Origin: Flavobacteriales bacterium
Lineage (GTDB): Bacteria; Bacteroidota; Bacteroidia; Flavobacteriales; Flavobacteriaceae
Direction: 5' to 3'
DNA length: 45,650 bases
Assembly (NCBI GenBank): GCA_016777325.1
Contig: JADHRQ010000009.1
Location: 1 to 45,650 of the forward strand
Position 1 is the stretch's first letter; each line of letters starts with the position of its first letter. A program made the translations under genes and the position numbers. Below, piece after piece: positions 8,685 to 39,048 of this stretch. The notes under the pieces were generated by a model that worked only from the letters and a program-made list of their open reading frames with translations, did not search any database and was not told the DNA's origin.

Positions 8685-8692
8685 TAAATTTA
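8685..8692 (+). promoter_or_regulatory. TAnnTTTA box four bases before ATG at 8697
   Basis: TAAATTTA, then ATTC, then ATG. It matches the Bacteroidota -7 element (last G replaced by A). No TTTG is seen at -33. If this is the -7 box, transcription would begin within a base or so of the start codon. Confidence 0.45.
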
Positions 8693-8696
8693 ATTC

Positions 8697-9713
8697 ATGA
8701 AACATACTATTGTTTTTTTAAGTTTTTTATCAGTATTAAACTGTAATTCTGATGATACCAGTGGATTTAAAATCCAGATTAACTCAACTAGTAATTCAAT
8801 CTCATTGGAGAGTGAAATTAGCATAGATGTTAAATCAACAAATAGTAAGGTAATTGATTCTATAAATTACTTCTTAAATGATACTAAGATTAGTAATAAA
8901 ATTTTACTCAGTAATAATAAAGCAGGAGAGAACATAGCTAAGGTTGATATTTATTCAAAAGGAAAGAAATATTCGATAAATAAAAGATTTGATATTTACT
9001 CAAATACAAAGCCAGAGTTAATGACATACAAAATTATTAAAGAGTTCAATCATGACAAACAAGCCTATACTCAAGGACTTGAATTTTACAATAATTTTTT
9101 ATTTGAAAGTACTGGGTTAAATGGAAAGTCATCAATCAGAAAGACAAATTTAAGCAATGGTGAAGTTCTAGATATATCAAATCTTGATTATGAATATTTT
9201 GGAGAAGGTCTAACCGTTTTAAATGATAAGATATATCAATTGACCTGGAAAAATAGAATTGGATTCATTTATGATTTAAACTTAAATAAAACTGGAACCT
9301 TTAATTATGGTAATAGTAAAGAAGGTTGGGGACTCTGCAATGATGGAAAGTTCATTTATAAATCTGATGGAACAAGTAAAATATGGAAATTAAATCCAGA
9401 AACATTAGAAGAGATTGATTTTATTGATGTTATGACTGATAAATCAAGAATTAAAAATATTAATGAGTTAGAGTTTATTGATGGTAGAATCTACGCAAAC
9501 ACATATCAATTTAATCGTGATGTTGTAATAGTTATAAATCCATTAAATGGAATAGTTGAAAAAGTAATTGATTTCACTGGAATAAGAGATGAAGTTCTGC
9601 AAACACCTGATATAGATGTGATGAATGGAATAGCATATAATAATGGAAAGTTATTTGTTACTGGTAAAAATTGGGATAAAATTTTTGAAGTAGAAGTCTA
9701 TTCTAAGAAATAG
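8697..9713 (+). CDS. Glutaminyl-peptide cyclotransferase-like lipoprotein (Glu_cyclase_2)
   Basis: Bacterial glutamine cyclotransferases of this family are five-bladed beta-propellers that turn N-terminal Gln into pyroglutamate. The family hallmarks are visible: [25 protein letters not shown] and WGLCNDG, and later [15 protein letters not shown]. It begins with a lipoprotein signal (Cys16 in SVLNCNSD) followed by a short extra beta-rich N-terminal region (to about residue 105), so it is likely anchored in the envelope. The last 11 bases overlap the 3' end of the convergent glyA. Confidence 0.9.
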
Positions 9714-10977
9714 AAAATAAAGGTCTATCTATCATGTATTTTTCTACTTTATCACCAATTTCATTTAACATACTTTCATTGTCATGATATTTAATAGATG
9801 AATCTATTGATTCAGCAACAAAATCCATATCGTCTTCAACTAAACCTCTAGTTGTAATAGCTGGTGTTCCGATTCTAATTCCACTTGTGACAAAAGGAGA
9901 TTGATCATCAAAGGGAATCATATTTTTATTAACAGTGATATTAGATAATCCTAAAACTCTTTCAGCATCTTTACCAGTTATATTTTTATTTCTTAAGTCA
10001 ATCAATAATAAATGATTGTCAGTACCACCTGAAACAATGTTATAACCAAGATTAGAAAGGGTGTTAGATAATCTTTTTGCGTTAACTATTACTTGATTGA
10101 TATATTTCTCAAAAAGTGGATCTAAAGCTTCTCCAAAAGCAATTGCTTTGGCTGCAATAACATGTTCTAAAGGGCCACCCTGATTACCAGGAAAAATTGC
10201 TGAGTCAAGAAGAGAAGACATCTTTTTTAAATTTCCATTTTTAAGTTTTAATCCAAAAGGATTGTCAAAATCTTTACCCATCATCATTATACCTCCTCTT
10301 GGACCTCTTAATGTCTTATGAGTAGTTGATGTTATGACATGACAATATAGAACTGGATCACTTAAAAAACCTTTAGCTATAAGGCCTGAAGGATGAGCAA
10401 TATCAGCATGAAGGAAAGCTCCAACTTCATCAGCAATTTCTCTAAATTTTTTAAAATCAATATCTCTAGAATATGCAGAAGCCCCAACAATTATTAGTTT
10501 TGGTTTAACTTCTTTAGCTCTAATTAAAATATCTTTATAATCAAATATTCCTTCTTGAGTAACACCATAAAAACTAGAATTATAAATTTTACCAGAAAAA
10601 TTTACCTTAGATCCATGTGTTAAATGACCCCCATGAGATAGATCTAAACCTAAAATTTTGTCACCTGGCTTTAAAAAGGCATCAAATACTGCAGTGTTAG
10701 CCTGAGATCCAGAATGAGGTTGAACATTAGCATATTCAACATTAAATAACTTTTTAAGCCTATCAATGGCAATGTTTTCTATTTTATCTACAACCTCACA
10801 TCCTCCATAATATCTTTTACCTGGATAGCCCTCTGCATATTTATTTGTCAATATTGAGCCAGTAGCCTTCATGACATTTTCACTAGTAAAGTTTTCTGAA
10901 GCAATTAATTCTAGACCACCTAACTGTCTGTCTTTTTCTTCTTTAATTAGTTTAAATATTTGTTCCTGATTATTCAT
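9703..10977 (-). CDS. glyA: Serine hydroxymethyltransferase
   Basis: PLP enzyme that interconverts serine and glycine and feeds one-carbon units to tetrahydrofolate. The 424 residues are of normal length. Seen: LIASENFTS near the N-terminus, [33 protein letters not shown], and the PLP lysine motif [13 protein letters not shown]. The 106 bases between its start and the acetyltransferase gene hold only AT-rich DNA with a TATAAT-like stretch; no riboswitch structure was recognised. Confidence 0.97.
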
Positions 10978-11083
10978 TTTAGAGTGTTAAAGTGCTAAAT
11001 TAATAAAATAGGTATTCTAGTTTATTTGTTTTGTATTATATAAATCAACTAGTTATAAACAATTTCTATTGATGAGTTTAGAG

Positions 11084-11530
11084 CTAAATTAAATATATAT
11101 TCATAAAATATAAATCGGCATTGTTTGGCCAATATTCTTTCTTTATATACTGAATTTTAAAATTTAATTTTTCATAAAACTTATAAGTAAGATTTGAAGT
11201 TTCAAGTTCAATTACTTTTAATTGCTTATTTCTTTTTAAAATATCTATACAATGATTAACTAGTTTTTTTCCTAATCCAATACTGTGATGATTGGGATCA
11301 ACAAAAACCCAGCATATTCTTGCAGTTTTTTTATTTTCATAAGCATAGCCTGCTGCTCCTAATATTTTACCTTCAGATTCGATAATAAAATAGGTTTCAA
11401 TATTATTTGAATTAAAATATTTTTTAAAATCAACCAATTCTTTTTTATGAAAATATTTGGGAATATTTAGAGTAAATATTTTAATTAAAAAGTCTAAATC
11501 TTTAAGGTCAGCGTGTCTTATTATTAGCAT
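11084..11530 (-). CDS. GNAT family N-acetyltransferase
   Basis: 148 residues of the Gcn5-related fold: IIRHADLKDLDFL at the start, a central beta strand with GAAGYAYE, the acetyl-CoA pyrophosphate loop HSIGLGKKL (motif A with GxG), and the C-terminal FYEKLNFK strand typical of the family. The acceptor is unknown. It lies 106 bases upstream of glyA on the same strand, so it could be co-transcribed, and is divergent from smpB. Confidence 0.88.
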   Translation of the reverse strand: MLIIRHADLKDLDFLIKIFTLNIPKYFHKKELVDFKKYFNSNNIETYFIIESEGKILGAAGYAYENKKTARICWVFVDPNHHSIGLGKKLVNHCIDILKRNKQLKVIELETSNLTYKFYEKLNFKIQYIKKEYWPNNADLYFMNIYLI

Positions 11531-11534
11531 TCAT

Positions 11535-11542
11535 TAAAAATA
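11535..11542 (-). promoter_or_regulatory. TAnnTTTA box four bases before ATG at 11530
   Basis: On the minus strand: TATTTTTA, ATGA, ATG. It shows the same geometry as the smpB box facing the other way 21 bases downstream on the plus strand. Confidence 0.45.
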
Positions 11543-11563
11543 AGTTATTCATTTTCAAATTTG

Positions 11564-11571
11564 TAATTTTG
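11564..11571 (+). promoter_or_regulatory. TAnnTTTG box four bases before smpB
   Basis: TAATTTTG, AGGA, ATG. This is a perfect -7 consensus. The AGGA spacer lies too close to the ATG to act as a normal Shine-Dalgarno site. Confidence 0.45.
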
Positions 11572-11575
11572 AGGA

Positions 11576-12034
11576 ATGAATAGTTTAGTTAATATTAATA
11601 ATAAGAAAGTAAAGTATGATTATTCCTTATTAGATAATTATACTTGTGGAATAGTTTTAACTGGAAACGAAATTAAATCTATCAGGAATTCCAATGCTTC
11701 TCTAAATAATTCATATTGTCAATTTGAGGGTGATGAACTTTATATTGTTAATATGCATGTTGATCAATATAAGAATTCAAGCGAGCTAAATTATGAGCCT
11801 AAAAGAAAACGAAAATTACTTCTGAACAAACTAGAACTAAGAAAAATTCAAAAACAAGTTATTGATGTTGGTATTACAGTTGTAGCTACCTCACTATTTA
11901 TAAGCAAGAAAGGTATAGCTAAATTAAATATCTCAGTTGCAAAAGGTAAAAGAGAATTTGATAAGAGAAATGTTATTAAGGATAGAGAGAGTAAAATTAG
12001 TTTGAAAAGAATCAAGAAAAATTTTAATAGCTAA
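11576..12034 (+). CDS. smpB: SsrA-binding protein SmpB
   Basis: Partner of tmRNA in rescue of stalled ribosomes. The 152 residues contain the family blocks: GIVLTGNEIKSIR (about 27-39), the NMHVDQY segment, EPKRKRKLLL, and the basic KGKREFDKRNVIKDRE tail that ends in a Lys/Arg-rich helix. The tmRNA gene itself is not in the window. The ATG at 11576 sits four bases after a TAATTTTG box. The stop overlaps the stop of pcm (CTAA). Confidence 0.97.
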   Translation: MNSLVNINNKKVKYDYSLLDNYTCGIVLTGNEIKSIRNSNASLNNSYCQFEGDELYIVNMHVDQYKNSSELNYEPKRKRKLLLNKLELRKIQKQVIDVGITVVATSLFISKKGIAKLNISVAKGKREFDKRNVIKDRESKISLKRIKKNFNS

Positions 12035-12672
12035 TCCTTGTTTTTAAGCATCGGAACAAACTTAAAATTACCAAAAGTCTCTTTTTTAAACTCAGTTTTA
12101 CCAAATCTTGTAATCTTAGTCATAATTTGAGATTCTTTACCTACAGGTATTATCATCTTACCTCCTATTTTAAGTTGCGATAGAAGTTTTTTTGGAATCA
12201 CAGGGCATCCTGCAGTTACAATTATCCCATCAAAAGGTGAGTTATCACTTAATCCATTATAACCATCACCATAGACAAACTTTTTTGGCCTAATATTTAA
12301 CTTGCTAAAAAGTTTAGATGTTATTCTAAATAAATTGTGATTTCTTTCAATTGTAAATATATTAAGCTTTAAATAATATAAAACTGCAGTCTGATATCCA
12401 GATCCTGTTCCTACTTCAAGAATTTTCTCACCAAGCTTAGGCTCTAATAATTGAGTTTGAAAAGCAACTGTAAAAGGTTGTGAAATAGTTTGATTATTTT
12501 CTATCGGTAAAGCTTTATCTAAATAAGCCTGTTCTGCAAGACCTGGATCTATAAATAAATGTCTTGGGACATTCTTGATAGAATCTATAATCAAAGGATT
12601 AAGTATACCTTTTTTCTGGAGCTCTTCAGCGAGAATTTTTCTTCGACCTTGAAACTTAAAGTTATCTTCCAC
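12031..12672 (-). CDS. pcm: Protein-L-isoaspartate O-methyltransferase
   Basis: Uses S-adenosylmethionine to methylate isoaspartyl residues so that damaged proteins can be repaired. Seen: VPRHLFIDP, the TISQPFTVAFQTQLL block, the SAM motif ILEVGTGSGYQTAVL, and the post-motif II segment PFDGIIVTAGCPVIP. Start: the frame is open to a TTG at 12708, but related proteins begin just before the equivalent of EDNFKFQG, so the GTG at 12672 (213 residues) is preferred; a GTG at 12678 is also possible. Convergent with smpB, divergent from the oxidoreductase at 12731. Confidence 0.9.
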   Translation of the reverse strand: MEDNFKFQGRRKILAEELQKKGILNPLIIDSIKNVPRHLFIDPGLAEQAYLDKALPIENNQTISQPFTVAFQTQLLEPKLGEKILEVGTGSGYQTAVLYYLKLNIFTIERNHNLFRITSKLFSKLNIRPKKFVYGDGYNGLSDNSPFDGIIVTAGCPVIPKKLLSQLKIGGKMIIPVGKESQIMTKITRFGKTEFKKETFGNFKFVPMLKNKD

Positions 12673-12718
12673 TAACACTAATATTAAATTATTACTCGAT
12701 AATTCCAAAAGAAGATTG

Positions 12719-12726
12719 TATTTTTA
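12719..12726 (+). promoter_or_regulatory. TAnnTTTA box four bases before ATG at 12731
   Basis: TATTTTTA, TCAA, ATG. This is the likely promoter element for the whole six-gene overlapping operon (12731-18696). Confidence 0.45.
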
Positions 12727-12730
12727 TCAA

Positions 12731-13687
12731 ATGATAAAGGTTGGTGTAATTGGTGCTGGTCATCTAGGTAAGATACATCTTAACATTCTAAGTAACTCAG
12801 ATTTTGATCTTATTGGCTTTCATGATACTGATGTAGTAAATTCTGAGAAATTAGCTTCAGAAAAAGGTTATGTTTTTTTTAAAGAAATAGACTCACTAAT
12901 AAACTTAATAGATGCAGCTGTAATTGTTTCTCCTACTACAACTCATTTTGAAATTGCAAAAAAATGTATTAATAATGGTAATCATATTTTTGTTGAGAAA
13001 CCATTAACTACAAATTCTAAAGAAGCGAGGATTATCAACAAACTAGCAAATGAAAAAAATATAATTGGGCAAGTTGGATTTGTTGAAAGGTATAATCAAG
13101 CTTTCATTTCTTGTAGAGAGTTTATTGATCAGCCTAAATTCATTGAGTCTCACAGATTATCAGACTTTAACCCAAGAGGTACTGATGTTTCAGTTATTAT
13201 GGACTTAATGATTCATGATATAGATATTATTTTAAATATTAATCAATCAAAAGTTAAAAAAATAGATGCTTCAGGTGTCTCAATAATTAGCTCAACTCCA
13301 GATATTGCAAATGCAAGAATAGAATTTGAAAATGGATGTATAGCTAATCTAACCTCAAGTAGAATATCACTTAAAAAAATGAGAAAGACTAGAATTTTTC
13401 AAGAAAATGCATATATATCTATAAATTTTTTAGAAAAAGACTTTCAAGTAGTTAAAATAAGAGATAAAGACACTAACGATAATGAAAATTCATTAATTAT
13501 AAAAAATAATCTAGGGCAAGAAAAAGTTATATTCTTTGAGAATCCTGATATAAATGAGATTAACTCAATAGAAGCAGAATTAAATGATTTCTTTCATTCA
13601 ATTAAAAATAAATCAGAATCTAAAGTAAGTTTAAATGATGGTCTTATGGCTCTAGAAGTTGCAGAAGAGATAATGAGTCAATTATGA
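12731..13687 (+). CDS. Gfo/Idh/MocA family oxidoreductase
   Basis: 318 residues with an N-terminal Rossmann motif GVIGAGHLGKIH, the family EKPLTTN block (catalytic region, about residues 90-97), VGFVERYNQA, and a C-terminal alpha/beta sugar-dehydrogenase-type domain with MDLMIHDIDI, which supplies the conserved acidic/His residues. The substrate is unknown. A TTG at 12716 is in frame, but the ATG at 12731 gives the family-like MIKVGVIGAGH start and is preceded by a TATTTTTA box. First gene of the overlapping operon; its stop overlaps the next start (ATGA). Confidence 0.9.
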   Translation: MIKVGVIGAGHLGKIHLNILSNSDFDLIGFHDTDVVNSEKLASEKGYVFFKEIDSLINLIDAAVIVSPTTTHFEIAKKCINNGNHIFVEKPLTTNSKEARIINKLANEKNIIGQVGFVERYNQAFISCREFIDQPKFIESHRLSDFNPRGTDVSVIMDLMIHDIDIILNINQSKVKKIDASGVSIISSTPDIANARIEFENGCIANLTSSRISLKKMRKTRIFQENAYISINFLEKDFQVVKIRDKDTNDNENSLIIKNNLGQEKVIFFENPDINEINSIEAELNDFFHSIKNKSESKVSLNDGLMALEVAEEIMSQL

Positions 13688-14334
13688 GTGTAAAAAATCA
13701 AATTTCAATAATTAATGATGAAATAAAAGATAAAGCTGAACTTATAGCTGTATCTAAGACTAGAAGTATTGAAGAAATTATTGAAGCTTATGATCAAGGT
13801 CAAAAAAAATTTGGAGAAAACAGAGTTAATGAATTAGCCGAAAAGTATCATAATTTACCAAAGGATATAGAATGGCATATGATTGGTCATCTTCAAAAAA
13901 ATAAAGTAAAATATATTTCAGAATTTATTTCTTTAATTCATTCATTAGATAGATTGTCTTTAGCAAAAGAGATTGATAAAAATGCGAAAAAGGAGAATAG
14001 GTCAATTGATTGTTTAATACAAATTAAGATTTCCAATGATGAAAGTAAATATGGATTGAATCCAAAACTACTTGATTCATTTTATATAGATTTGAAACAA
14101 TTTGAAAACATAAACATAGTTGGACTAATGGCTATGGCTACATTTACAAAAGATCAAAATTTAATAGATCAAGAGTTTAGAGAAATGGAGAGTTTATTCA
14201 AAAAAATGAAAACTATTTATCCAAACTTTAAAATTCTTTCGATTGGAATGAGTGATGATTATTTATTAGCTATTAGTAATGGATCTAACATGATTAGAGT
14301 TGGAAGTAAAATTTTTGGAAAAAGAAATTATTAA
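13684..14334 (+). CDS. YggS/PLPBP family pyridoxal phosphate homeostasis protein
   Basis: Alanine-racemase-like single TIM barrel that binds PLP and keeps its level and amino-acid pools balanced. 216 residues. Seen: LIAVSKTRS with the PLP lysine at Lys25, GENRVNE, EWHMIGHLQKNK, the QIKISND.KYGL strand, GLMAMATF and the SIGMSDDYLLAI and RVGSKIFG phosphate-binding elements. Start ATG overlaps the upstream stop by four bases, and its TAA overlaps the next ATG by one base, so translation is likely coupled on both sides. Confidence 0.95.
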   Translation: MSVKNQISIINDEIKDKAELIAVSKTRSIEEIIEAYDQGQKKFGENRVNELAEKYHNLPKDIEWHMIGHLQKNKVKYISEFISLIHSLDRLSLAKEIDKNAKKENRSIDCLIQIKISNDESKYGLNPKLLDSFYIDLKQFENINIVGLMAMATFTKDQNLIDQEFREMESLFKKMKTIYPNFKILSIGMSDDYLLAISNGSNMIRVGSKIFGKRNY

Positions 14335-15461
14335 TGTATACTATTGTTGACCTAGAAACTACTGGAGGAAAATTTAATGAAGAATCAATAATTGAAGTTG
14401 CAGCTTACAAATTTAATGGCACTGAAATTACAGACCAATTTATTAGCTTAGTTAATCCTGTGAGAGATATACATCCATATGTAGAAAAACTTACTGGTAT
14501 TACATCTAAAATGGTTAAAACAGCTCCTAAATTCCACGAAATAGCTAAAAGAGTGATTGAGATAACCTCAGACTCAATATTAGTAGCTCATAATGCTCAA
14601 TTTGATTATAGAATTCTTCAATTAGAATTTAAAAGACTTGGGTACGAATTTTCAATGAAATCTTTATGTACTGTAATACTATCTCAAGAATTGCTTACAG
14701 AACAAGAATCCTTTAAACTAGGAAAACTTTCAAGAAGTCTAGGGATTCCATTAAAAGATAGACATAGAGCAAGTGGAGATGCACTAGCGACACTAGAATT
14801 ATTTAAAATTTTAATGGAAAAAGATGTTAAGCAAGAAATAATTAAGAAAAGCATAGTTGAGTTTCCTGGTGAGAGCATGAATTCACTTTTTAAAGACACT
14901 ATTGAAAATTTAAATAATGAAGTTGGTGTTTTTTATATATACAATAAACATAAAAAGTTGATCTATATTGATTACAGTAAGGATATAAAAAACAAAGTTG
15001 TAAAACTATTTACGAGTAAAAAGTTTATTCCAAAATATGTTCAAAATAATTTTAAATCTATAAAAGTTCACAAGACAGGGAATATTAGCATCAGTGTTAT
15101 CAAGGCGTTAAATGAGATAAGATCTTTAAAACCAAAAATCAATAATAATATAGATCCTAAAATATTTCAAAAAACAGATAAACCCATTATTGTTGCTGAA
15201 TTAAAAGATTTTATCATCACTTTTAATGGCAAAAAAGAAAGTGATAAAAGTTTTATTTTTTTTAAAAATGAAGAACTTGTTGGATATGGATACTTTAACC
15301 TATTTAATAATATAAATAATCAAGAAAAATTGTACTCAAGAGTGGTGAAAGTTGAAAATTCTGCAAAGGTTAATAATTATGTCTACAGAATAATTTCTCA
15401 AAAGAAATATAAAAAACTACTAACTTTGAGTGAAATTTATAAATTTTCAGATATTGAATAA
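14334..15461 (+). CDS. DnaQ-like 3'-5' exonuclease with a degenerate GIY-YIG-like region
   Basis: Residues 1-165 form an RNase T/DnaQ exonuclease domain: Exo I VDLETTGG (Asp5, Glu7), Exo II AHNAQFDYRIL, and Exo III HRASGDALAT. From about residue 195 there is a segment laid out like the GIY-YIG domain found after this exonuclease in other bacteria (UvrC/Cho-like): GVFYIYNKHKKLIYID. The hallmarks read GVF and YID, and the catalytic Arg is not evident, so this half is probably not a nuclease. The rest (about 290-375) is unrecognised. The ATG overlaps the YggS stop by one base. Confidence 0.88.
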   Translation: MYTIVDLETTGGKFNEESIIEVAAYKFNGTEITDQFISLVNPVRDIHPYVEKLTGITSKMVKTAPKFHEIAKRVIEITSDSILVAHNAQFDYRILQLEFKRLGYEFSMKSLCTVILSQELLTEQESFKLGKLSRSLGIPLKDRHRASGDALATLELFKILMEKDVKQEIIKKSIVEFPGESMNSLFKDTIENLNNEVGVFYIYNKHKKLIYIDYSKDIKNKVVKLFTSKKFIPKYVQNNFKSIKVHKTGNISISVIKALNEIRSLKPKINNNIDPKIFQKTDKPIIVAELKDFIITFNGKKESDKSFIFFKNEELVGYGYFNLFNNINNQEKLYSRVVKVENSAKVNNYVYRIISQKKYKKLLTLSEIYKFSDIE

Positions 15462-27442: not shown

Positions 27443-28523
27443 ATGTTTTCAAAGGAAAATATTAAAGTAGTGAAAAAACGTATTGATACGTTGAGGGGGT
27501 ATCTTTGACGTAGATTCAAAAAAAGAGATTCTTAATAGTCTTGAAATAGAATCTTCCTCTCCTAACTTTTGGACAAAACCAAAAAAAGCTGAACAAACTT
27601 TAAAAAAAATTCAAAGTTTAAAAAAACAGTTATCTGAATTATTAAATCTTAATAATTTATATGATGATGTAATAGTTCTAAGTGAATTCCTGTTAAATAA
27701 GGAAGTTACTGAAGCAGAAGTAAACGAGTCTTTTGATAAGTTACTTCAAGCAGTTGAAGACATGGAATTCAAGATGATGTTGAATAAGAAAGAGGATAAA
27801 ATGAGTGCAATACTTCAAATAACTGCAGGTGCAGGTGGAACAGAATCCTGTGATTGGGCTGAAATGCTAATGAGAATGTATTTAATGTGGGGTGAAAAAA
27901 ATAATTTCAAGATCAAAGAACTAAATAATCAATCTGGAGATGTTGCTGGAATTAAGACCGCAACTATTCAAATTGATGGTGAATATGCATTTGGTTGGCT
28001 AAAAGGTGAAAACGGAGTACATAGACTTGTAAGAATATCTCCTTTCGATAGTAATGCTAAAAGACATACATCATTTGCTTCAATTTATGTATACCCTCTA
28101 GTTGACGATACTATTGAAGTTGTTATTAATGGGTCAGACTTGACATGGGATACAATGAGATCTGGTGGTGCCGGTGGTCAAAGTGTAAATAAGATTGAGA
28201 CAGCTGTAAGATTAAAGCATAAGCCAACCGGAATTACTATAGAAAATTCTGAAACAAGATCTCAACTAGATAATAAAGAAAAAGCTTTAATGCTATTAAA
28301 ATCTCAGCTATACGAAATTGAAATACAAAAAAATAATGAAGAAAAAAAGAAGATTGAAGATTCAAAAAAGAAAATTGAGTGGGGCTCACAAATAAGGAAC
28401 TATGTTCTCCATCCTTATAAAATTGTAAAGGACGTTAGAACAGGATTTGAATCAGGAAATACTGAGAATATTTTGAACGGAGAGATAAATGATTTCCTTA
28501 AATCTTTTTTATTAAATCGTTAA
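27443..28523 (+). CDS. prfB: Peptide chain release factor 2 (programmed +1 frameshift)
   Basis: Reads UGA and UAA stop codons and triggers peptide release. The gene is in two frames: ATG at 27443 opens 21 codons up to CTT and an in-frame TGA (27506-27508); a +1 shift at CTT-T-GAC continues in the frame ending at 28523. The joined product has 359 residues, as expected for RF2. The SPF codon-recognition motif (199-201) and the GGQ release motif (244-246) are intact. It is divergent from the metalloprotease, with 58 bases between. Not a pseudogene: the shift site has the well-known autoregulatory layout. Confidence 0.96.
27494..27509 (+). promoter_or_regulatory. Programmed +1 frameshift site of prfB
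   Basis: Internal Shine-Dalgarno-like AGGGGG, then TAT, CTT TGA C. Low RF2 makes the ribosome pause at the TGA and slip forward by one base on CTT, so RF2 controls its own synthesis. The C after TGA makes it a weak stop, as in other prfB genes. Confidence 0.95.
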
Positions 28524-30363: not shown

Positions 30364-30367
30364 TTAG

Positions 30368-30375
30368 TAAATGTA
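30368..30375 (-). promoter_or_regulatory. TAnnTTTA box four bases before dnaB
   Basis: On the minus strand: TACATTTA, CTAA, ATG. The same eight bases serve as the -7 box before the transketolase gene at 32658. Confidence 0.45.
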
Positions 30376-30475: not shown

Positions 30476-31429
30476 TTAAACTTTAAAGTTTCCAATTTTA
30501 GTAAACTTTTTTCTTCTAGATTTTATCATATTATCTTTTGATAATGATCTTATTTTTTTGGTAAAATATATTATGTTTTCTTTAACAGAATTATATGCTT
30601 CAGAAGGATTATAATGGGCACCACCAAGAGGTTCATTAATAATTTTATCAATTAATTTATTTTTAAGCATATCTTTTGCGGTAAGCTTTAAAGCTTCAGC
30701 AGCTTCCTCTTTATAATCCCAGCTTCTCCAAAGAATAGATGAACATGATTCAGGAGAAATAACAGAGTACCAAGTATTTTCAAGCATTAATATTTTATCT
30801 CCAACACCAATTCCTAATGCTCCTCCAGAGGCACCTTCTCCAATCACTATACATATTATTGGAACCTTAATATTCATCATTTCATAAATATTTCTTGCAA
30901 TCGCCTCACCTTGACCCCTTTCTTCTGCTTCTAGTCCAGGAAATGCACCAGGAGTATCAATTAACGTAACAATTGGAATATTAAATTTTTCAGCTTGTTT
31001 CATTAATCTGAGAGCCTTCCTGTATCCTTCTGGGTTAGACATACCAAAATTTCTATATTGCCTAGTCTTTGTATTGTATCCCTTTTGGGTTCCTATAAAC
31101 ATATATGATTGATCGTCTATTTTACCTAAACCACCTATCATAGCTTTATCATCACCAACATTTCTATCACCATGTAATTCAAGGAATGATTCTCCACAAA
31201 TATTGTTAATATAATCTAAAGTATATGGTCTGTTAGGATGGCGTGATAGTTGAACTTTTTGCCAAGCTGAAAGATTTCCGTAAACATCCTTTTTGGTATC
31301 AGCTAATTTTTTTTGAAGAAGATTGTAAGTCTTAGTTATATCAACGTCACTTTCATTTTCAATAGACTTGCACTTATCAATTTGATCTAAAATTTCTTTA
31401 ATAGGAACTTCAAATTCTAAAAACTCCAT
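30476..31429 (-). CDS. accA: Acetyl-CoA carboxylase carboxyltransferase subunit alpha
   Basis: Half of the carboxyltransferase that passes CO2 from biotin to acetyl-CoA, the first step of fatty-acid synthesis. 317 residues, normal length. Seen: [49 protein letters not shown], the oxyanion-hole glycines in [10 protein letters not shown], and the SPE(S/G)CSSILW block. The C-terminal end is Lys-rich. A TAAATTTT sequence (one mismatch) stands four bases before the ATG, although the permease gene 37 bases upstream on the same strand could also drive it. Confidence 0.97.
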
Positions 31430-31466
31430 AGCTAAAATTTATGTAAATATAGTTTAATTATATAAT

Positions 31467-32534: not shown

Positions 32535-32538
32535 TAAT

Positions 32539-32546
32539 CAAAATTA
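32539..32546 (-). promoter_or_regulatory. TAnnTTTG box four bases before the LptF/G-type gene
   Basis: On the minus strand: TAATTTTG, ATTA, ATG; a perfect -7 match in the divergent spacer. Confidence 0.45.
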
Positions 32547-32619
32547 GTAAAGTAATTAACATCATAAATGAATTGTTAATTATTTCTATCAAATTAATGA
32601 TAAAAAGAAATTAAAGTGT

Positions 32620-32650
32620 TTTGTTTCTCATATGTTTAATCATACATTTA
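32620..32650 (+). promoter_or_regulatory. Promoter of the split transketolase operon
   Basis: TTTG at 32620-32623, exactly 19 bases, then TACATTTA at 32643-32650. Both Bacteroidota elements are present. The ATG is seven bases after the -7 box, so the mRNA leader would be about 0-4 bases. Confidence 0.55.
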
Positions 32651-32657
32651 CGAACTA

Positions 32658-33485
32658 ATGTATGAAGAGTTAAATAAGTTAGTTCCACAAGTACGAAGGG
32701 ATATTTTAAGAATGGTTCACGCAGTAAATTCAGGTCACCCAGGTGGTTCACTTGGTTGTGTTGAATATTTTGTTACACTTTACAAAACGATTCTTGAGGT
32801 TGAAAGCAATAGTAATCAAAATGATATGTTCATTCTATCTAATGGTCATATTTCACCAGTTTATTACAGCACTCTAGCTAGAAGTGGTTATTTTGATATA
32901 AAGGAATTGGATACCTTCAGAAAAATAAACTCTAGACTTCAAGGTCACCCTACTAACCATGATGGTTTACCTGGAATAAATATTTCTTCTGGTTCACTTG
33001 GTCAAGGTGTTTCTGTTGGATTGGGTATAGCTCTTTCTAAAAAATTAAATAATGACCCCTCCATTGTATATGTTTTAACTGGAGATGGTGAACTTCAAGA
33101 AGGTCAAAACTGGGAAGCATTTATGTATGCATCAGCAAATAAAGTCGATAATATAATAGTAACTGTTGACTGCAATGGACAACAAATAGATGGATCAACC
33201 GATGATGTACTAAATATTGGAGATCTAAAACAAAAATTTGAATCATTTGGCTGGAAAGTTCTTGAAGTTGAAGAAGGAAACTCTCTTGATAAAATTCATG
33301 AAGCATTAACTACTGCAAAAGAAAATTCTAAAAAAGGAAAACCTACAGTAATTTTAATGAAAACTATTATGGGTAATGGTGTTGACTTTATGATGCATAC
33401 GCATAAATGGCATGGAGTAGCACCAAATGATGATCAACTAAAGATTGCACTTAATCAAAATCCTGAAACTTTAGGTGACTATTAA
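32658..33485 (+). CDS. Transketolase, N-terminal (TPP-binding) subunit
   Basis: First half of a split transketolase, 275 residues. It carries the thiamine pyrophosphate and Mg binding part: SGHPGGSLGCVEY, SSGSLGQGVSVGLG, GDGELQEGQNWEA followed about 30 residues later by the closing D.NGQQIDG of the TPP motif. Transfers two-carbon units in the pentose phosphate pathway together with the C-terminal subunit, whose ATG follows after one base. An alternative would be a related enzyme with split subunits (for example DXP-synthase-like), but the motifs favour transketolase. Confidence 0.94.
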   Translation: MYEELNKLVPQVRRDILRMVHAVNSGHPGGSLGCVEYFVTLYKTILEVESNSNQNDMFILSNGHISPVYYSTLARSGYFDIKELDTFRKINSRLQGHPTNHDGLPGINISSGSLGQGVSVGLGIALSKKLNNDPSIVYVLTGDGELQEGQNWEAFMYASANKVDNIIVTVDCNGQQIDGSTDDVLNIGDLKQKFESFGWKVLEVEEGNSLDKIHEALTTAKENSKKGKPTVILMKTIMGNGVDFMMHTHKWHGVAPNDDQLKIALNQNPETLGDY

Positions 33486-33486
33486 T

Positions 33487-34440
33487 ATGGAAAATTATAT
33501 AAATCACGGAGATAAAGATACAAGGTCTGGTTTTGGAGAAGGTCTTACAGAACTTGGAAGATCTAATGAAAATATTGTAGCATTATGTGCTGATCTTACC
33601 GGTTCATTAAAAATGAATGAATTTGCAAAAGAAAACCCTGAAAGATTTTTTCAAACAGGAATTGCAGAAGCAAATATGATTGGACTTGCAGCTGGACTTG
33701 CAACTGGCGGAAAAATTCCTTACACAGGAACATTTGCAAACTTTTCAACAGGTAGAGTATATGATCAAATAAGACAATCAATTGCATATTCAAATAAAAA
33801 TGTCAAAATATGCGCTTCTCATGCAGGTATAACCTTAGGAGAAGATGGTGCTACTCATCAAATACTGGAAGACATTGGATTAATGAAAATGCTTCCTGGA
33901 ATGACTGTAATTAACACCTGTGATTTTAATCAAACTAAGTCTGCTACCATTGAAATTTCTAATTATGATGGTCCAGTTTATTTAAGATTTGGTAGGCCAA
34001 AAGTTGCAAACTTTACAGATGTATCTAAAAAGTTTGAAATAGGAAAAGGTTTAAAGTTGAAAGTAGGCTCCGATGTTACAATTGTAGCTACAGGTCATCT
34101 TGTTTGGGAAGCTTTAAAAGCATCAGAGAATTTATCGGAAAAAGGAATAAATTCTGAAATAATAAATATCCACACAATTAAACCTTTAGATGAAGAAATT
34201 ATTTTAGAATCAGTTTCTAAAACTGGTTGCCTTGTTTCTGCAGAGGAACATAATATTTATGGCGGATTAGGTGAAAGTATCTCTAGATTATTAGCTACAA
34301 AAATGCCAACTCCTCAAGAGTTTGTGGGTACTAAGGATACCTTTGGTGAATCAGGTACACCAAAGCAACTTATGGATAAATATGGGTTGAATAGTTCTTC
34401 AATTTGTGAGTCCGTAATTAATGTTCTTAAAAGGAAATAA
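33487..34440 (+). CDS. Transketolase, C-terminal subunit
   Basis: 317 residues from the ATG at 33487: the pyrimidine-binding domain (GFGEGLTELG, then RFFQTGIAEANMIGLAAGLA with the Glu that activates TPP) and the C-terminal transketolase domain (KTGCLVSAEEHNIYGGLGESI). A GTG at 33475 is in frame but lies within the partner gene, and homologues start close to the ATG. Together with the upstream gene it reconstitutes a full-length transketolase. Confidence 0.94.
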   Translation: MENYINHGDKDTRSGFGEGLTELGRSNENIVALCADLTGSLKMNEFAKENPERFFQTGIAEANMIGLAAGLATGGKIPYTGTFANFSTGRVYDQIRQSIAYSNKNVKICASHAGITLGEDGATHQILEDIGLMKMLPGMTVINTCDFNQTKSATIEISNYDGPVYLRFGRPKVANFTDVSKKFEIGKGLKLKVGSDVTIVATGHLVWEALKASENLSEKGINSEIINIHTIKPLDEEIILESVSKTGCLVSAEEHNIYGGLGESISRLLATKMPTPQEFVGTKDTFGESGTPKQLMDKYGLNSSSICESVINVLKRK

Positions 34441-34471
34441 TAGATGGCACACTAATTGCTCTTAAATTAGT

Positions 34472-35134
34472 ATGAGATATATAATTATTTTAATAATACT
34501 TTTTTCTACTAATTTAGTTGCCCAAGGTAATTTAGGGGTAAACTTTGGTCTAAATGATGACAACTTTGGAGCTATAGAGAATATCAAGAATAAAATTGAT
34601 AACTATGATCTTGATATCAAAAATTCTACAGGATTTCATTTTGGAGTATTTACTGAAATTGATTTAATTACTTTCTACATTAGACCTGAAGTAAATCTTA
34701 TTTTTTCTAAATCAAAAAATGCATCTGCTTTTGAAGGAAATTCTATATTAAATCAATCAATTAATATAGCAGAGCATTCTTATAAATCAACTGAGATTCA
34801 AGTGCCTATTATATTTGGATACAAAGTTTTAGGTCCAATAAGCGTTTTTGCAGGTCCTTCATTCAAATATAGCCTTTCAAACTCTAGCAACTTTGATTTA
34901 GAAGATATCAAAGACAAGTATACATTAAGTTTACTTATTGGATCTAGAGTTAAATTCAGATCTTTAAGTCTTGGATTGAGATATGAAAGAGGACTTAACA
35001 ACAGGGAAATTCTAATTATAAATGCTAATGGTGTTGAACTTGATGACGCAAATGTTGACTTAACAACCAATAAATTATCATTAAATCTTTCTTATGATAT
35101 ACCCTATGGTTTATTTAAGAAAAAAAATAACTAG
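34472..35134 (+). CDS. PorT-like outer membrane beta-barrel protein
   Basis: 220 residues with a signal peptide (MRYIIILIILFSTNLVAQ). The rest shows alternating hydrophobic and polar strands typical of small outer-membrane barrels: GVNFGLN, GFHFGVFTEIDL, FYIRPEVNLIFS, VPIIFGYKVLGPISVFAGPSFKYSL, GSRVKFRSLSLGLRYERGL, and an aromatic end. The PorT/OmpA-like barrel call is a general one; no substrate can be assigned. It lies 31 bases after the transketolase genes. Its stop overlaps that of the FKBP gene (CTAG). Confidence 0.8.
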   Translation: MRYIIILIILFSTNLVAQGNLGVNFGLNDDNFGAIENIKNKIDNYDLDIKNSTGFHFGVFTEIDLITFYIRPEVNLIFSKSKNASAFEGNSILNQSINIAEHSYKSTEIQVPIIFGYKVLGPISVFAGPSFKYSLSNSSNFDLEDIKDKYTLSLLIGSRVKFRSLSLGLRYERGLNNREILIINANGVELDDANVDLTTNKLSLNLSYDIPYGLFKKKNN

Positions 35135-36009
35135 TTATCTGGGTCTAAATAGTCAGGAATTCCATCATTATTAGAATCATCTATAATAGAATCATTGTTC
35201 TTATCAATTTCATTTTTTGTAAGTACACCATCACCATCATCGTCAACATCATACATATTCCATAAATTATCGCCATCGGTGTCATCTCCAAATGGATTAT
35301 TATCGCCATCAATGTCTTCAAAAATTGATAAAATACCATCATTATCATGGTCTGTATCAGTATAAGTCATTAGTTTAACAGCAAAAATTAAAGGTGAATA
35401 TTCAGGTATACTTCCTGAGCTTGAATTATCAAAATAGCCAATTCCTGAGGGGATAAAAAACAAACCAACACCAAAAGAACTATAATCAATTATTCCATTT
35501 GAGTTTTCAGAATATTTACCTGTTCGAAGTTCTGATACACCTTCTCTAAAACCTTGAAGTGTATTAGCTAAATCTATCCAAACAGGAAACTTACGATTAT
35601 CAAATGAACTTCCATCAATTAGTTTTCCATCATAAGCAACATAAACAGAGTCGACAACTGAAGGTTGTCTGTTAGAACCTTCTCTAGCAATAATATAATA
35701 TAAATTGTGAGATATTATTTGACCATCAGCATCTACAACGTCAACTGTCTTAATACTTACCTGTTCAAATAGAGATAGTCTTGATGAATCATCAGTAATT
35801 GTATCAAGTTTGATATCAACATCAGATTCATTATTGAAATCTTCATAATTGTATGTATGAGTTTTTAAGTATGTTTCAAGGAGATCTTGATCAACTAATA
35901 CTTGCTCACTGTAATCTCTAGCAGTATATGTGGGAGTAGAATCGTCATCTTTATTACACTGAATAAAGAATAATAAAACAGGAAATAGAAAAAATAATTT
36001 TTTCTTCAT
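35131..36009 (-). CDS. FKBP-type peptidyl-prolyl isomerase lipoprotein with calcium-repeat tail
   Basis: 292 residues: lipoprotein signal (Cys18 in FFIQCNKDD), an N-terminal region, an FKBP fold (about 120-230: SVYVAYDGKLIDGSSFDN, LQGFREGVSELRTG, FFIPSGIGYFD), and a tail of about 70 residues filled with D-x-D-x-D-G calcium-binding motifs (DTDHDNDG, DGDNNPFGDDTDGD, DVDDDGDG, NNDGIPD), like thrombospondin type 3 repeats. It is predicted to be an envelope folding helper whose tail needs Ca2+. The 51 bases upstream are shared with the divergent PRTase gene. Confidence 0.88.
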   Translation of the reverse strand: MKKKLFFLFPVLLFFIQCNKDDDSTPTYTARDYSEQVLVDQDLLETYLKTHTYNYEDFNNESDVDIKLDTITDDSSRLSLFEQVSIKTVDVVDADGQIISHNLYYIIAREGSNRQPSVVDSVYVAYDGKLIDGSSFDNRKFPVWIDLANTLQGFREGVSELRTGKYSENSNGIIDYSSFGVGLFFIPSGIGYFDNSSSGSIPEYSPLIFAVKLMTYTDTDHDNDGILSIFEDIDGDNNPFGDDTDGDNLWNMYDVDDDGDGVLTKNEIDKNNDSIIDDSNNDGIPDYLDPDN

Positions 36010-36060
36010 AATTTAGTGCGAAGATACAATAATACTTTATTTATTTAAAAGAGTATTCTT

Positions 36061-36558
36061 ATGAAAAAACTTAGTATTCAAAACTTAATTTTAGATAATA
36101 GTGATATTGAAAATAAAATTCAAAGAATTGGATTACAAATATTGGAAGACAACATAGAGAAATCTAAAATTATATTCTTTGGCATCTCAGATAATGGTAA
36201 ATTAATTGCAAAAAAACTAATAGTTCACTTAAATAAGATATCTAAGTTAGAAGTAGAATTGATTAAAGTTACTATTGAGAATAATTCTGTTTTATATGAC
36301 AAGAAGTTTTCAATTAAAAATGAATCCGTAATTATCGTTGGAGATGTTTCACATTCTGGAAAAACAATACAATTAGTCATTAGCAACCTTATTCAATATA
36401 ACCCATTAAAAATAAAAACTTCTGTCATTGTAAATAGAGATCATGCATTATTTCCTGTAAAGATTGATTATGCCGGACTAAGCTTATCGACATCAGTAAA
36501 TGAACATGTAGACATGATAATTGATAAAAAAAAGAATCTTAGGGTATACTTAAGCTAA
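36061..36558 (+). CDS. Phosphoribosyltransferase-fold protein (PyrR-like)
   Basis: 165 residues with a type I PRTase fold: FGISDNGKLIAKKL near residue 40, and the PRPP loop as IIVGDVSHSGKTIQ (about 96-109), where VDD is usually expected before V.x.TG, so one acidic residue is changed to Gly. The end with STSVNEHVDMIID resembles PyrR. It could be a uracil PRTase/pyrimidine regulator of PyrR type; activity is uncertain. The 3' end overlaps aroK by 9 bases. Confidence 0.75.
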   Translation: MKKLSIQNLILDNSDIENKIQRIGLQILEDNIEKSKIIFFGISDNGKLIAKKLIVHLNKISKLEVELIKVTIENNSVLYDKKFSIKNESVIIVGDVSHSGKTIQLVISNLIQYNPLKIKTSVIVNRDHALFPVKIDYAGLSLSTSVNEHVDMIIDKKKNLRVYLS

Positions 36559-37077
36559 TTTACTAGCTATTAATTTTACAATTTCAGTAGGTTCTAAATT
36601 ATCTGTTACAATCTTAATCTTTGACTTTTCATAGTAATAATTTCTCTCAAATAAATGTTTTGTAATAAACTCCTTCAATTTATACTCATCAGTTAAATGT
36701 GAAATTATAGGACGATTATCAATACTATCCTTCAACCTATTAACTAATACATCAATATTAGCTTTAAGATAAATCGAAGTTGAATTTGGAGATTCATTGA
36801 TTATTTCAAAATTATTTTGAAAGCAAGGAGTTCCTCCTCCAGTAGATATTATCTTATTGTCCTTAAGTAAAGAAATTTCCTTTAGATATTTATTCTCAAT
36901 TTTTCTAAAGTAAACTTCATTATTTTGATTAAAAATTTTAGACACCTTTTTACCTTCTTTTGCTTCAATATATTCATCTAGATCATAGAAATTAAAACCA
37001 TTGATTTGAGATAATAATTTACCAACAACAGATTTACCTGCACCCATATAACCAATTAAAAAAATAGTATTCAACAT
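36550..37077 (-). CDS. aroK: Shikimate kinase
   Basis: Phosphorylates shikimate at the 3-OH in the chorismate pathway. 175 residues, normal size. P-loop GYMGAGKS (9-16), FYDLDEYIE with the substrate Asp, EVYFRKIE with the Arg contact, the STGGGTPCF glycine motif, and the lid with DNRPI. The TAAATTTG box at 37092-37099 (minus strand) lies 14 bases before its ATG. Divergent from the tRNA operon. Confidence 0.96.
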   Translation of the reverse strand: MLNTIFLIGYMGAGKSVVGKLLSQINGFNFYDLDEYIEAKEGKKVSKIFNQNNEVYFRKIENKYLKEISLLKDNKIISTGGGTPCFQNNFEIINESPNSTSIYLKANIDVLVNRLKDSIDNRPIISHLTDEYKLKEFITKHLFERNYYYEKSKIKIVTDNLEPTEIVKLIASKLA

Positions 37078-37091
37078 TTTATTTTATCTAA

Positions 37092-37099
37092 CAAATTTA
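37092..37099 (-). promoter_or_regulatory. -7 box (TAAATTTG) before aroK
   Basis: Perfect TAnnTTTG on the minus strand, 14 bases before the aroK ATG. No clear -33 TTTG. Confidence 0.4.
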
Positions 37100-37113
37100 T
37101 AATAAAAAAGATC

Positions 37114-37144
37114 ATTGCATAATCAATATTTCAATGTATATTTG
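37114..37144 (+). promoter_or_regulatory. Promoter of the tRNA-Lys/tRNA-Leu operon
   Basis: ATTG at 37114-37117, exactly 19 bases, then a perfect TATATTTG at 37137-37144, 13 bases before the mature tRNA-Lys. Because the RNA start must lie between the box and the tRNA, this serves as an internal calibration of the -7 element used elsewhere in the window. Confidence 0.65.
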
Positions 37145-37156
37145 ACCTCTTTTTCA

Positions 37157-37229
37157 GACCTGGTAGCTCAGTTGGTAGAGCATCTCCCTTTTAAGGAGAG
37201 GGTCCTGGGTTCGAGCCCCAGCCAGGTCA
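37157..37229 (+). tRNA. tRNA-Lys (anticodon TTT)
   Basis: Cloverleaf: acceptor GACCTGG/CCAGGTC, D stem GCTC/GAGC, anticodon stem TCTCC/GGAGA with loop CTTTTAA, T stem CTGGG/CCCAG with loop TTCGAGC, discriminator A. CCA is not encoded. 73 bases. Confidence 0.97.
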
Positions 37230-37247
37230 CTACCCATTATATTTATT

Positions 37248-37331
37248 GCCTACGTGGTGAAATTGGTATACACGCTACCTTGAGGGGGTAGTCAGCTTAT
37301 GCTGGTGGAGGTTCGAGTCCTCTCGTAGGCA
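37248..37331 (+). tRNA. tRNA-Leu (anticodon GAG)
   Basis: Acceptor GCCTACG/CGTAGGC, anticodon stem CTACC/GGTAG with loop TTGAGGG (anticodon GAG), a long variable arm as expected for Leu, T loop TTCGAGT, discriminator A. CCA is not encoded. 84 bases, 18 bases after tRNA-Lys, so likely one transcript. Confidence 0.96.
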
Positions 37332-37357
37332 CTTTAACTTTTTTAATTAGTATAATT

Positions 37358-38152
37358 TTATTTTTTAGTAAATAAGCTTTTAATACCAGAAAATATTCCT
37401 TTTGATTTAGTTTCTTTTTCCTTAACAGGTTTTTTCTCTTCAATAACCTCTTTAACTGGTTTTTCCTCTATAACAACCTCTTTAACTGATTTTTCCTCTA
37501 CAACAACCTCTTTAACTGATTTTTCCTCTTTGATATTTTTATCAACTTTTGGAGTTGATTCAATATTCTCTGTTAAAGAATCTTGCTTAGGTTGATTAGC
37601 TTGATATTCTTTTAGCATTTTTTCTTCCATTTCTTTACCTTTCTTAAAAACAAAAGTTTTTTCCAAATTTCTATTAAATAAGTCAGAATCAAATTCCCCT
37701 CCCTCTTTCTTTAGATTATGCCATTCTCCATTCTCATAAATTTCAATATCAAGATTATTTATACTTAAAGGACTAAAAGTAGCATACCATTCAGAAGGAT
37801 CAGCTCCTTTAGATTTACCGATTTCTGCCATTTTATCCCATAACAAAGGATTAACTTTTGATTTGTGCTTATATTTTGCAAATGTCACAAATAGGGAGTT
37901 TAGATTTGTTATAAATCTTGCACATCCAATATACTTTTCAAATTCTTCAGGAGTATTTAGATCAAACTCTTTTTTTCCATCGTTAAATCTTTTAAAAGCA
38001 GAATGTTCCCATTTAGAATTTTTGGTGAACCAAAGACCTGGTTTTTTTACTTTCAGCATCTTCTCTGTTTGAGATGTATATAGCTTTCCTACTTTAAAAA
38101 TTTCAATTAAATGAGAAAGAGATGTATAGTGATAAATTAAAGTTTTTTCCAT
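37358..38152 (-). CDS. Unknown protein with HYTS-type N-terminal domain and Lys/Glu repeat tail
   Basis: 264 residues, not assigned to a family. Residues 1-190 look globular. The opening IYHYTSLSHLIEIFKVGKLYTS resembles the first strand/helix of ADP-ribosyltransferase-fold proteins (H-Y-T, then a GxL-S turn), followed by LWFTKNSKWEHSAFKRF, GCARFI and DPSEWYATFSPLSIN. This match is by pattern only. From residue 209 there are four copies of a ten-residue unit (EEKSVKEVVV-like), then KSKGIFSGIKSLFTKK, a basic amphipathic end. No signal peptide. No antitoxin-like partner lies next to it. A TATCTTTG box stands four bases before the ATG. Confidence 0.75.
   Translation of the reverse strand: MEKTLIYHYTSLSHLIEIFKVGKLYTSQTEKMLKVKKPGLWFTKNSKWEHSAFKRFNDGKKEFDLNTPEEFEKYIGCARFITNLNSLFVTFAKYKHKSKVNPLLWDKMAEIGKSKGADPSEWYATFSPLSINNLDIEIYENGEWHNLKKEGGEFDSDLFNRNLEKTFVFKKGKEMEEKMLKEYQANQPKQDSLTENIESTPKVDKNIKEEKSVKEVVVEEKSVKEVVIEEKPVKEVIEEKKPVKEKETKSKGIFSGIKSLFTKK
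37409..37528 (-). repeat. In-frame 30-base tandem repeat (four units)
   Basis: Codes for EEKSVKEVVV, EEKSVKEVVI, EEKPVKEVIE and EKKPVKEKET. The first three units are near-identical at DNA level (period 30), so copy number could vary by slippage without breaking the frame. Confidence 0.85.
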
Positions 38153-38156
38153 TTTT

Positions 38157-38164
38157 CAAAGATA
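38157..38164 (-). promoter_or_regulatory. TAnnTTTG box four bases before ATG at 38152
   Basis: On the minus strand: TATCTTTG, AAAA, ATG; a perfect -7 match. Confidence 0.45.
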
Positions 38165-38187
38165 TGAATTGATTTACTCTTTTTACT

Positions 38188-38195
38188 TATTTTTG
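38188..38195 (+). promoter_or_regulatory. TAnnTTTG box four bases before crtB
   Basis: TATTTTTG, TAAT, ATG; a perfect -7 match, likely driving crtB-crtZ. An ATTG at 38168-38171 lies only 16 bases upstream, which is shorter than the usual 19. Confidence 0.45.
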
Positions 38196-38199
38196 TAAT

Positions 38200-39048
38200 A
38201 TGAAATCAATCTTCGATAAAGTTTCAAATGATTGTAGCAAACTAGTAATAAAGAGATATAGTACATCTTTTTATTTTTCAAGCAGCCTACTTTCTAAGTC
38301 AATAAGACAAGATATATTTAATATATATGGTTTTGTTAGACTAGCCGATGAAATAGTAGACACATTTCATGAATATCCTAAAAAAGAATTATTAGAAGAT
38401 TTTGAAAGTGAGTTGTGGAGAAGTCTTGATAATAAAATTAGTTTAAATCCTATACTTAATTCATTTCAACATACAGTTAATAAATATTCAATTTCAAAAG
38501 ATCTGATAAGCTCTTTTTTAGATAGTATGAAAATGGATTTAGAAAAAAAAGAATACAATAGTGTTGAAGAATATAAAAAATATATATACGGGTCTGCTGA
38601 TGTAGTTGGTTTAATGTGTTTAAAAGTATTTGTGAGAGGTTCTGAAGACTCTTATGATGATCTTAGTCCATTTGCCATTTCATTAGGCTCTGCATTTCAA
38701 AAAGTTAATTTTTTAAGAGATTTAAAAGATGATTCTAATATTTTAAGCCGAGTTTACTTTCCAAATGTTGATATGGATAATTTTAATGAAAAAACAAAAA
38801 AAGAAATTATCTTAGAAATTGATAAAGACTTTGCAAATGCAGTTAAAGGCATAGACAAACTCCCAAAAAATTCAAAATTTGCAGTTTATATTGCTTACAG
38901 GTATTACAATAAACTACTAAAAAAATTAAAACGCACACCCTCTGAAAATATTGTTAAAAAAAGAATTAGAATCCATAATCTCACAAAGTTTATTGTAATT
39001 GCACGTTCTTATGTTAAATATCAATTAAATCTAATTCAATGGATATAA
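38200..39048 (+). CDS. crtB: Phytoene synthase
   Basis: Joins two geranylgeranyl diphosphates to phytoene, the first committed step of carotenoid synthesis. 282 residues of the squalene/phytoene synthase fold, with both Mg-binding Asp-rich motifs: ADEIVD (about 46-51) and NFLRDLKDD (about 168-176), plus the FYFSSSLLSKSIR start and YGSADVVGLMCL. It overlaps crtZ by 10 bases. Phytoene desaturase (crtI) is not next to it. Confidence 0.95.
   Translation: MKSIFDKVSNDCSKLVIKRYSTSFYFSSSLLSKSIRQDIFNIYGFVRLADEIVDTFHEYPKKELLEDFESELWRSLDNKISLNPILNSFQHTVNKYSISKDLISSFLDSMKMDLEKKEYNSVEEYKKYIYGSADVVGLMCLKVFVRGSEDSYDDLSPFAISLGSAFQKVNFLRDLKDDSNILSRVYFPNVDMDNFNEKTKKEIILEIDKDFANAVKGIDKLPKNSKFAVYIAYRYYNKLLKKLKRTPSENIVKKRIRIHNLTKFIVIARSYVKYQLNLIQWI

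Follow-up and report, generated by a model that had tools for sequence, protein, structure and literature searches.

Candidate leaderless promoters in a Flavobacteriales contig: a TAnnTTTR box four bases before the start codons of eight first genes

Eight boxes and their genes

The window analyzed here is a 45,650-nucleotide (nt) stretch of DNA from a Flavobacteriales bacterium (assembly GCA_016777325.1, contig JADHRQ010000009.1), in which eight genes carry the octamer TAnnTTTR exactly four bases before their ATG. This box is a candidate -7 promoter element, and the mRNAs of the eight genes are predicted to be leaderless or nearly so. The window is contig C11 in an assembly of 809,199 bases and 18 contigs, with a completeness of 54.7% and a GC content of 0.29. 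By AccA, its closest named relatives include marine Bacteroidota metagenome-assembled genomes, for instance MED-G121 (97%) and AG-319-P17 (93%), and an isolate labelled Cryomorphaceae MED-G11 (90%) (the window's own record was possibly omitted).

Genes were called with a custom open reading frame (ORF) script, which takes the first ATG after a stop codon as the start and misses GTG and TTG starts. We term a gene leading if its upstream neighbor is divergent or more than 50 bp away; by this caller the window holds 40 genes, of which 27 are leading. Gene names follow a reading of the sequences and are given as presumptive. All eight sites that an earlier note had listed are present with the coordinates, strands and sequences it gave, each box ending precisely four bases 5′ of the ATG (gap 4). 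In the following list, counts for the genus include the window's own sequence unless relatives are named.

8685..8692, plus strand: TAAATTTA, predicted -7 box, gap 4 to ATG 8697 (338-amino-acid protein); box and gap identical in 3/3 relatives
11535..11542, minus strand: TATTTTTA, predicted -7 box, gap 4 to ATG 11530 (acetyltransferase-like, named from reading the sequence); gap 4 in 10/10
11564..11571, plus strand: TAATTTTG, predicted -7 box, gap 4 to ATG 11576 (presumably SmpB-like); gap 4 in 18/18, of which 11 have ATG and 7 GTG
12719..12726, plus strand: TATTTTTA, predicted -7 box, gap 4 to ATG 12731 (presumably oxidoreductase-like); gap 4 in 17/18, gap 7 in 1
30368..30375, minus strand: TACATTTA, predicted -7 box, gap 4 to ATG 30363 (presumably a DnaB-like helicase); gap 4 in 23/23
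32539..32546, minus strand: TAATTTTG, predicted -7 box, gap 4 to ATG 32534 (presumably an LptF/LptG-like permease); of 22 usable sequences, gap 4 in 5 and gap 5 in 17
38157..38164, minus strand: TATCTTTG, predicted -7 box, gap 4 to ATG 38152 (uncharacterised protein); of 20, gap 4 in 15 and gap 3 in 5
38188..38195, plus strand: TATTTTTG, predicted -7 box, gap 4 to ATG 38200 (presumably CrtB-like); of 20, gap 4 in 18, gap 5 in 1 and gap 6 in 1

Four of the eight boxes end in TTTG and four in TTTA, the latter one letter from the TAnnTTTG consensus. The acetyltransferase-like gene is present in nine of 17 relatives' smpB loci. A scan of both strands of the window for TAnnTTTRNNNNATG returned 15 matches, eight at the named gene starts and seven elsewhere. 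Written as TAHHTTTR, the gap-4 box precedes 8/27 leading genes. The expectation at any gap was taken as the box rate in shuffled upstream regions; at gap 4 this amounts to 0.25 TTTG and 0.90 TTTA forms in the 265 leading genes counted in the genome, or ∼0.43% per gene, in agreement with the 0.4% roughly estimated in the earlier note. At this rate, eight or more boxes among 27 genes have a probability of ∼2e-13, which disfavors a chance origin.

Conservation in the genus and distribution of gaps

For comparison, 24 other genomes from the same genus were available. Upstream regions of orthologues for seven of the eight genes were taken from the loci of 23 relatives, G027 contributing no sequences; loci without a tblastn match to the gene were omitted, and one LptF-like sequence was unusable. 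A box at gap 3–7 is found in 131/131 usable upstream regions (seven own and 124 from relatives): 106 at gap 4, 18 at gap 5, five at gap 3, and one each at gaps 6 and 7. The comparison with other flavobacteria that the earlier note had called for thus bears out the pattern within the genus. The TA and TTT letters of the box have a pairwise identity of 1.0, compared with 0.46–0.66 for the first three spacer bases and 0.52–0.68 for third codon positions. The count itself required a box, yet no sequence was dropped for want of one. The box is conserved, whereas the spacer next to the start codon shows roughly the variation seen at third codon positions and is not specially conserved. Every sequence of dnaB, smpB and the acetyltransferase-like gene read in the genus has a gap of exactly 4. 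In the smpB orthologues of L023, L024, L027, L029, L030, L034 and L036, a GTG start replaces the ATG and the box is kept at gap 4. All 18 smpB start codons begin with a purine, and the last base of the smpB box alternates between G and A among orthologues.

The upstream sequence is common to a close divergent gene or ORF at 11530/11576, 38152/38200, 8697 and 12731, so that conservation outside the box has multiple causes at these sites. The minus-strand ORF 12031–12708 has an uncertain start (TTG in the ORF list), and its 5′ end overlaps the region upstream of the 12731 gene; conservation there is thus not evidence for the box alone. Cleaner cases are dnaB, with a co-directional neighbor 112 bp away, and the LptF-like gene, with a divergent neighbor 123 bp away.

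Leading genes of the window's own genome were also paired with their orthologues in G021, a genome of the same genus. A box precedes the own gene in 24 of 65 pairs, and in each of these the G021 orthologue belongs to the same class: seven short (five of them in the window), 14 leadered and three intermediate. Among the 41 pairs without an own box, 38 are boxless in G021 and three have a box.

The own-genome count covered 716,525 bases including the window, with 571 called genes and 265 leading genes. The gap-4 box precedes 16 of these (8 TAHHTTTG and 8 TAHHTTTA) compared to 1.15 expected, and the peak at four bases that had been predicted for a genome-wide count is present. Outside the window the box is found in 8/238 leading genes. 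The difference between the window and the rest (8/27 versus 8/238; Fisher 3e-5) is a post hoc comparison, the window having been chosen for this feature. The window is locally rich in gap-4 boxes, and the genome-wide peak is real yet modest. By hand arithmetic, TTTR boxes at gaps 3–6 number 23 against 4.6 expected, and after subtraction of chance about 7% of leading genes in the own genome look leaderless or nearly so. Base frequencies anchored on the starts of all leading genes show little signal, probably because leaderless genes are a minority.

We pooled seven Bacteroidota sets: the own genome, G021, three genomes from other families of the order (G014, G019 and G016), 14 other Flavobacteriales loci and 19 other Bacteroidota loci; the short loci L112 and L122 and the same-genus loci L082–L089 were excluded. 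Their 2154 called genes comprise 1221 leading genes, 641 inner (operon-internal) genes, and 292 in neither group, which have no neighbor within the stretch or a co-directional neighbor 21–50 bp away. TAHHTTTG precedes the leading genes five times at gaps 0–3, 37 times at gap 4, and then 16, 13 and seven times at gaps 5, 6 and 7, giving the distribution a sharp left edge at gap 4. The gap-4 count is still 33/1194 with the window removed. A second feature is a depleted interval, with 19 boxes at gaps 8–13 compared to 91 at gaps 14–19 (P ∼2e-12). Besides the own genome, five of the six other sets show the gap-4 peak. Thus, the pattern noted in the window extends to the own genome and most other sets, with G021 as an exception (see below), while the window's high rate does not hold for the genome as a whole. 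In 221 leading genes of Bacillota, neither box form matches at gaps 3–7. Thirteen Rhodothermales-like loci have no box at gaps 0–40, which is uninformative given their GC content of 0.59.

At the level of the order, dnaB and smpB were followed in the best 30 matches each, the window's own included, from 55 and 57 genomes with a match, respectively. A strict TAnnTTTR box at gap 4–7 precedes dnaB in 11 of the 29 other loci among these best 30, and in 15 if TTCG is allowed; they represent six families (f1, f2, f3, f7, f10 and f13) and include one GTG start. Within the same dnaB matches, no gap 4–7 box was found in loci of f8, f14, f15 (one of them truncated where its contig ends) and f16, and two of the four loci from f7 likewise have none. 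For smpB, the corresponding counts are ten strict boxes in 29 other loci and 15 with TTCG allowed. The LptF-like gene has no gap 4–7 box in the 18 of 29 other order loci where an ATG was found, a weak negative as 11 loci with no ATG in range were unscanned and the match start was assumed at base 1501.

Three further boxes in the window lie at greater distances from their start codons. In the genus reading that covered these three genes, sequences lacking an ATG close by were not counted; the seven smpB sequences concerned carry GTG at the same place.

31444..31451, minus strand: TATATTTA, conserved leadered box, gap 14 to ATG 31429 (presumably AccA-like); relatives with an ATG have gaps of 13–27, most often 14
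37092..37099, minus strand: TAAATTTG, leadered box, gap 14 to ATG 37077 (presumably AroK-like); of five relatives, gap 14 in three and gaps 7 and 16 in two
32643..32650, plus strand: TACATTTA, intermediate and variable box, gap 7 to ATG 32658 (presumably the N half of transketolase); relatives mostly have gaps of 5–10, with 16 and 17 in two

The three sites with one mismatch at gap 4 that the earlier note had added (20647, 31429- and 43775-) exist as written. They add little, since ∼0.8 such near-matches are expected by chance in 27 genes (hand arithmetic). The one at accA is incidental; its letters change among relatives, and it is TATATTTA at gap 14 that is conserved.

The start codons of three divergent pairs are merely 45–47 bp apart (11531–11575, 38153–38199 and 43776–43820), and in two of these pairs both genes have a gap-4 box. 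An association of the box with short divergent spacers (20–60 bp) was considered and rejected: the pooled contrast is 9/62 versus 48/1159 (P 0.0016), but five of the nine come from the window and the rest of the own genome has only 1/22.

Proposed promoter placement and its alternatives

The box is best read as the known -7 element of sigma-A promoters, placed at the distance expected for leaderless mRNAs, and not as a translation element. From the sequence evidence, it is highly probable that these boxes place the mRNA start at, or within one or two bases of, the start codon. Each box would serve as a -7 element for the primary sigma factor of Bacteroidota (sigma-A, ABfr type). RNA polymerase would melt the box and begin the RNA 4–5 bases past its last base, such that the first nucleotide of the mRNA would be the A of the start codon or lie one to two bases from it. 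The ribosome would then initiate in leaderless mode on the 5′-terminal AUG, or on GUG in the seven smpB orthologues. The -7 consensus and the box-to-start distance come from the literature. In Flavobacterium johnsoniae, the RNA starts 4–5 nt beyond the -7 box according to PMC6847099, and such a fixed distance would give the steep rise at gap 4. The leaderless-promoter proposal of the earlier note is supported by the gap-4 edge, the near-restriction to leading genes and the varying spacer, with the mRNA starts remaining predictions.

The boxes could also be promoters whose RNA starts slightly downstream, or that are dominated by promoters further upstream, so that the main mRNAs are leadered or start at a downstream codon. 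Gaps 5–7 account for 36 of the 73 TAHHTTTG matches at gaps 4–7, corresponding to leaders of ∼1–3 nt, and the gap of 3 in the 38152- gene also fits such a reading. However, gap 4 is the most frequent value and marks where the short hump begins, and it does not vary in the genus sequences of dnaB, smpB and the acetyltransferase-like gene; we consider this alternative improbable.

The main alternative of the earlier note, a translation-initiation element within a leader that is recognized by the ribosome and not by RNA polymerase, is very unlikely. Its position would be fixed relative to the start codon, as observed, and such a signal should also mark operon-internal genes. The gap-4 TAHHTTTG box is nearly restricted to first genes, however, occurring in 37/1221 leading compared to 0/641 operon-internal genes (Fisher 1.8e-7), which disfavors a translation signal. 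TAHHTTTA gives a weaker contrast, 20/1221 leading versus 5/641 operon-internal. The identical box also stands at least 14 bases upstream of other first genes, as at accA and aroK (gap 14 in both), and the start-adjacent spacer is not specially conserved. Chance matching in an AT-rich genome is a negligible explanation: the GC content of 0.29 and the 7/15 window matches away from named starts would suit it, but it is opposed by the probability given above, by the conservation in all 131 usable genus upstream regions and by the ATGs within called genes of the own genome, of which only 11/13333 carry a gap-4 box.

Several observations weigh against promoter placement at the start codon. In the 400 kb of the two-contig G021 genome that were sampled, which do not include the region matching the window, gap 4 is barely enriched (one TTTG, no TTTA, and three TTTG at gap 5). 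Relative to TAHHTTTG, TAHHTTTA is more frequent at gap 4 (20 versus 37 in the pooled leading genes) than at leadered gaps. The five TTTA boxes at gap 4 in operon-internal genes exceed the 0.83 expected, which also favors a translation element; TAA stop codons are a possible cause. In dnaB, the sole gene of this kind, spacer identity (0.66) is higher than that of third codon positions (0.52). The gap of 3 in 5/20 sequences of the 38152- gene needs a 3-nt distance from box to RNA start or another start codon. Finally, agreement with distant families is weak, and the class of a gene often differs between them: among 18 orthologue pairs with G014, 28 with G019 and 17 with G016, short-class genes of the own genome are short there in 1/4, 0/2 and 0/3 cases, respectively.

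In line with the earlier remark, a -33 TTTG is not evident at these sites. None is clear at gap-4 boxes (n = 37), and even at leadered boxes T is only mildly enriched at -35 to -33 (n = 241). The lack of a clear -33 TTTG is no argument against a promoter, as this element is reported to be much less evident in F. johnsoniae promoters too (PMC6847099).

A broader scheme, which we put forward tentatively and regard as less probable than not, is that first genes of Bacteroidota form two discrete classes, leaderless (0–3 nt) and leadered (at least 10 nt), with selection against leaders of 4–9 nt. A gene would keep its class within a genus, several families of the order would have leaderless or nearly leaderless dnaB and smpB, and the leaderless genes might be regulated together via the initiation machinery. 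The depletion of 4–9 nt leaders suggests two distinct modes of translation start. The genes dnaB, smpB and crtB offer named, conserved candidates for tests of leaderless translation in a phylum that lacks Shine-Dalgarno signals, and the distance from promoter to start may be readable from sequence alone in uncultured marine Bacteroidota.

Relation to known systems and neighboring features

Leaderless mRNAs are already known in this phylum as a minority class. In published work, 5.5% of the examined mRNAs of F. psychrophilum are leaderless (PMC9723704), 87% of F. johnsoniae leaders exceed 10 nt (PMC6847099), leaving 13% by subtraction that do not, and ∼3.7% of Bacteroides thetaiotaomicron leaders are shorter than 10 nt (PMC7366714). 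A survey of leaderless genes (PMC3160421) found them in one of 37 Bacteroidetes/Chlorobi genomes and states that it detected solely those with Pribnow-like promoters. In Bacteroidetes, AT-rich signals 5′ of the start codons have been described as possible leaderless promoters or S1 sites (PMC5397173).

The box has the same sequence as the -7 element of the Bacteroidota sigma-ABfr/sigma-A promoter (-33 TTTG, -7 TAnnTTTG), and at leadered genes of our sets it lies in the same position. It differs in that TTTA and TTTG are equally frequent at gap 4 in the own genome (8 and 8 of 265 leading genes), and in that a -33 TTTG is not evident, much as described for F. johnsoniae (PMC6847099). The leaderless mRNAs of F. 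psychrophilum and the short leaders of F. johnsoniae come from the same phylum and promoter type, and our estimate of ∼7% is of similar order to the 5.5% given in PMC9723704. In contrast to the Flavobacterium cases, ours are predicted from sequence, and the class of the examined genes is conserved across the genus. The few-base distance from promoter to start is also that of leaderless mRNAs in Actinobacteria, Deinococcus-Thermus and archaea, as surveyed in PMC3160421, where the RNA likewise begins at the start codon (predicted in our case). What appears newer, as the present data suggest, is the gene-by-gene conservation (dnaB and smpB) and the depletion of 4–9 nt leader lengths. Neither leaderless dnaB or smpB as a conserved trait nor a shortage of 4–9 nt leaders in Bacteroidota turned up in a literature search that was not by gene name and had supplements outside its scope.

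In one survey (PMC10783764), 55% of Flavobacteriia belong to a group without the anti-Shine-Dalgarno core. Among 25 genomes searched here, the 3′ end of the 16S rRNA reads GGAATACCTCCTT in all 14 with a match (the own genome had none); the core, CCTCC, is retained in those 14 relatives. A prfB-like gene carries AGGGGGTATCTTTGAC at its 5′ end (27490–27520, plus strand), with a frame ending in TGA followed by an open frame one base on, a layout that we take to be that of the programmed frameshift known from release factor 2. The AGGGGG in it resembles a Shine-Dalgarno sequence and would depend on an anti-Shine-Dalgarno core, which is present in the relatives' 16S rRNA.

Two other observations concern the window and a genome from another family of the order. 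A tRNA-Lys (ttt) adjoins a tRNA-Leu (gag) at 37157–37332 on the plus strand. In G017, TANNTTTGNNNNATGAAAA recurs 11 times in the forward and once in the reverse direction on contigs C2, C9, C12, C16 and C20, five of the copies being in C16, as if it were a start region common to a gene family.

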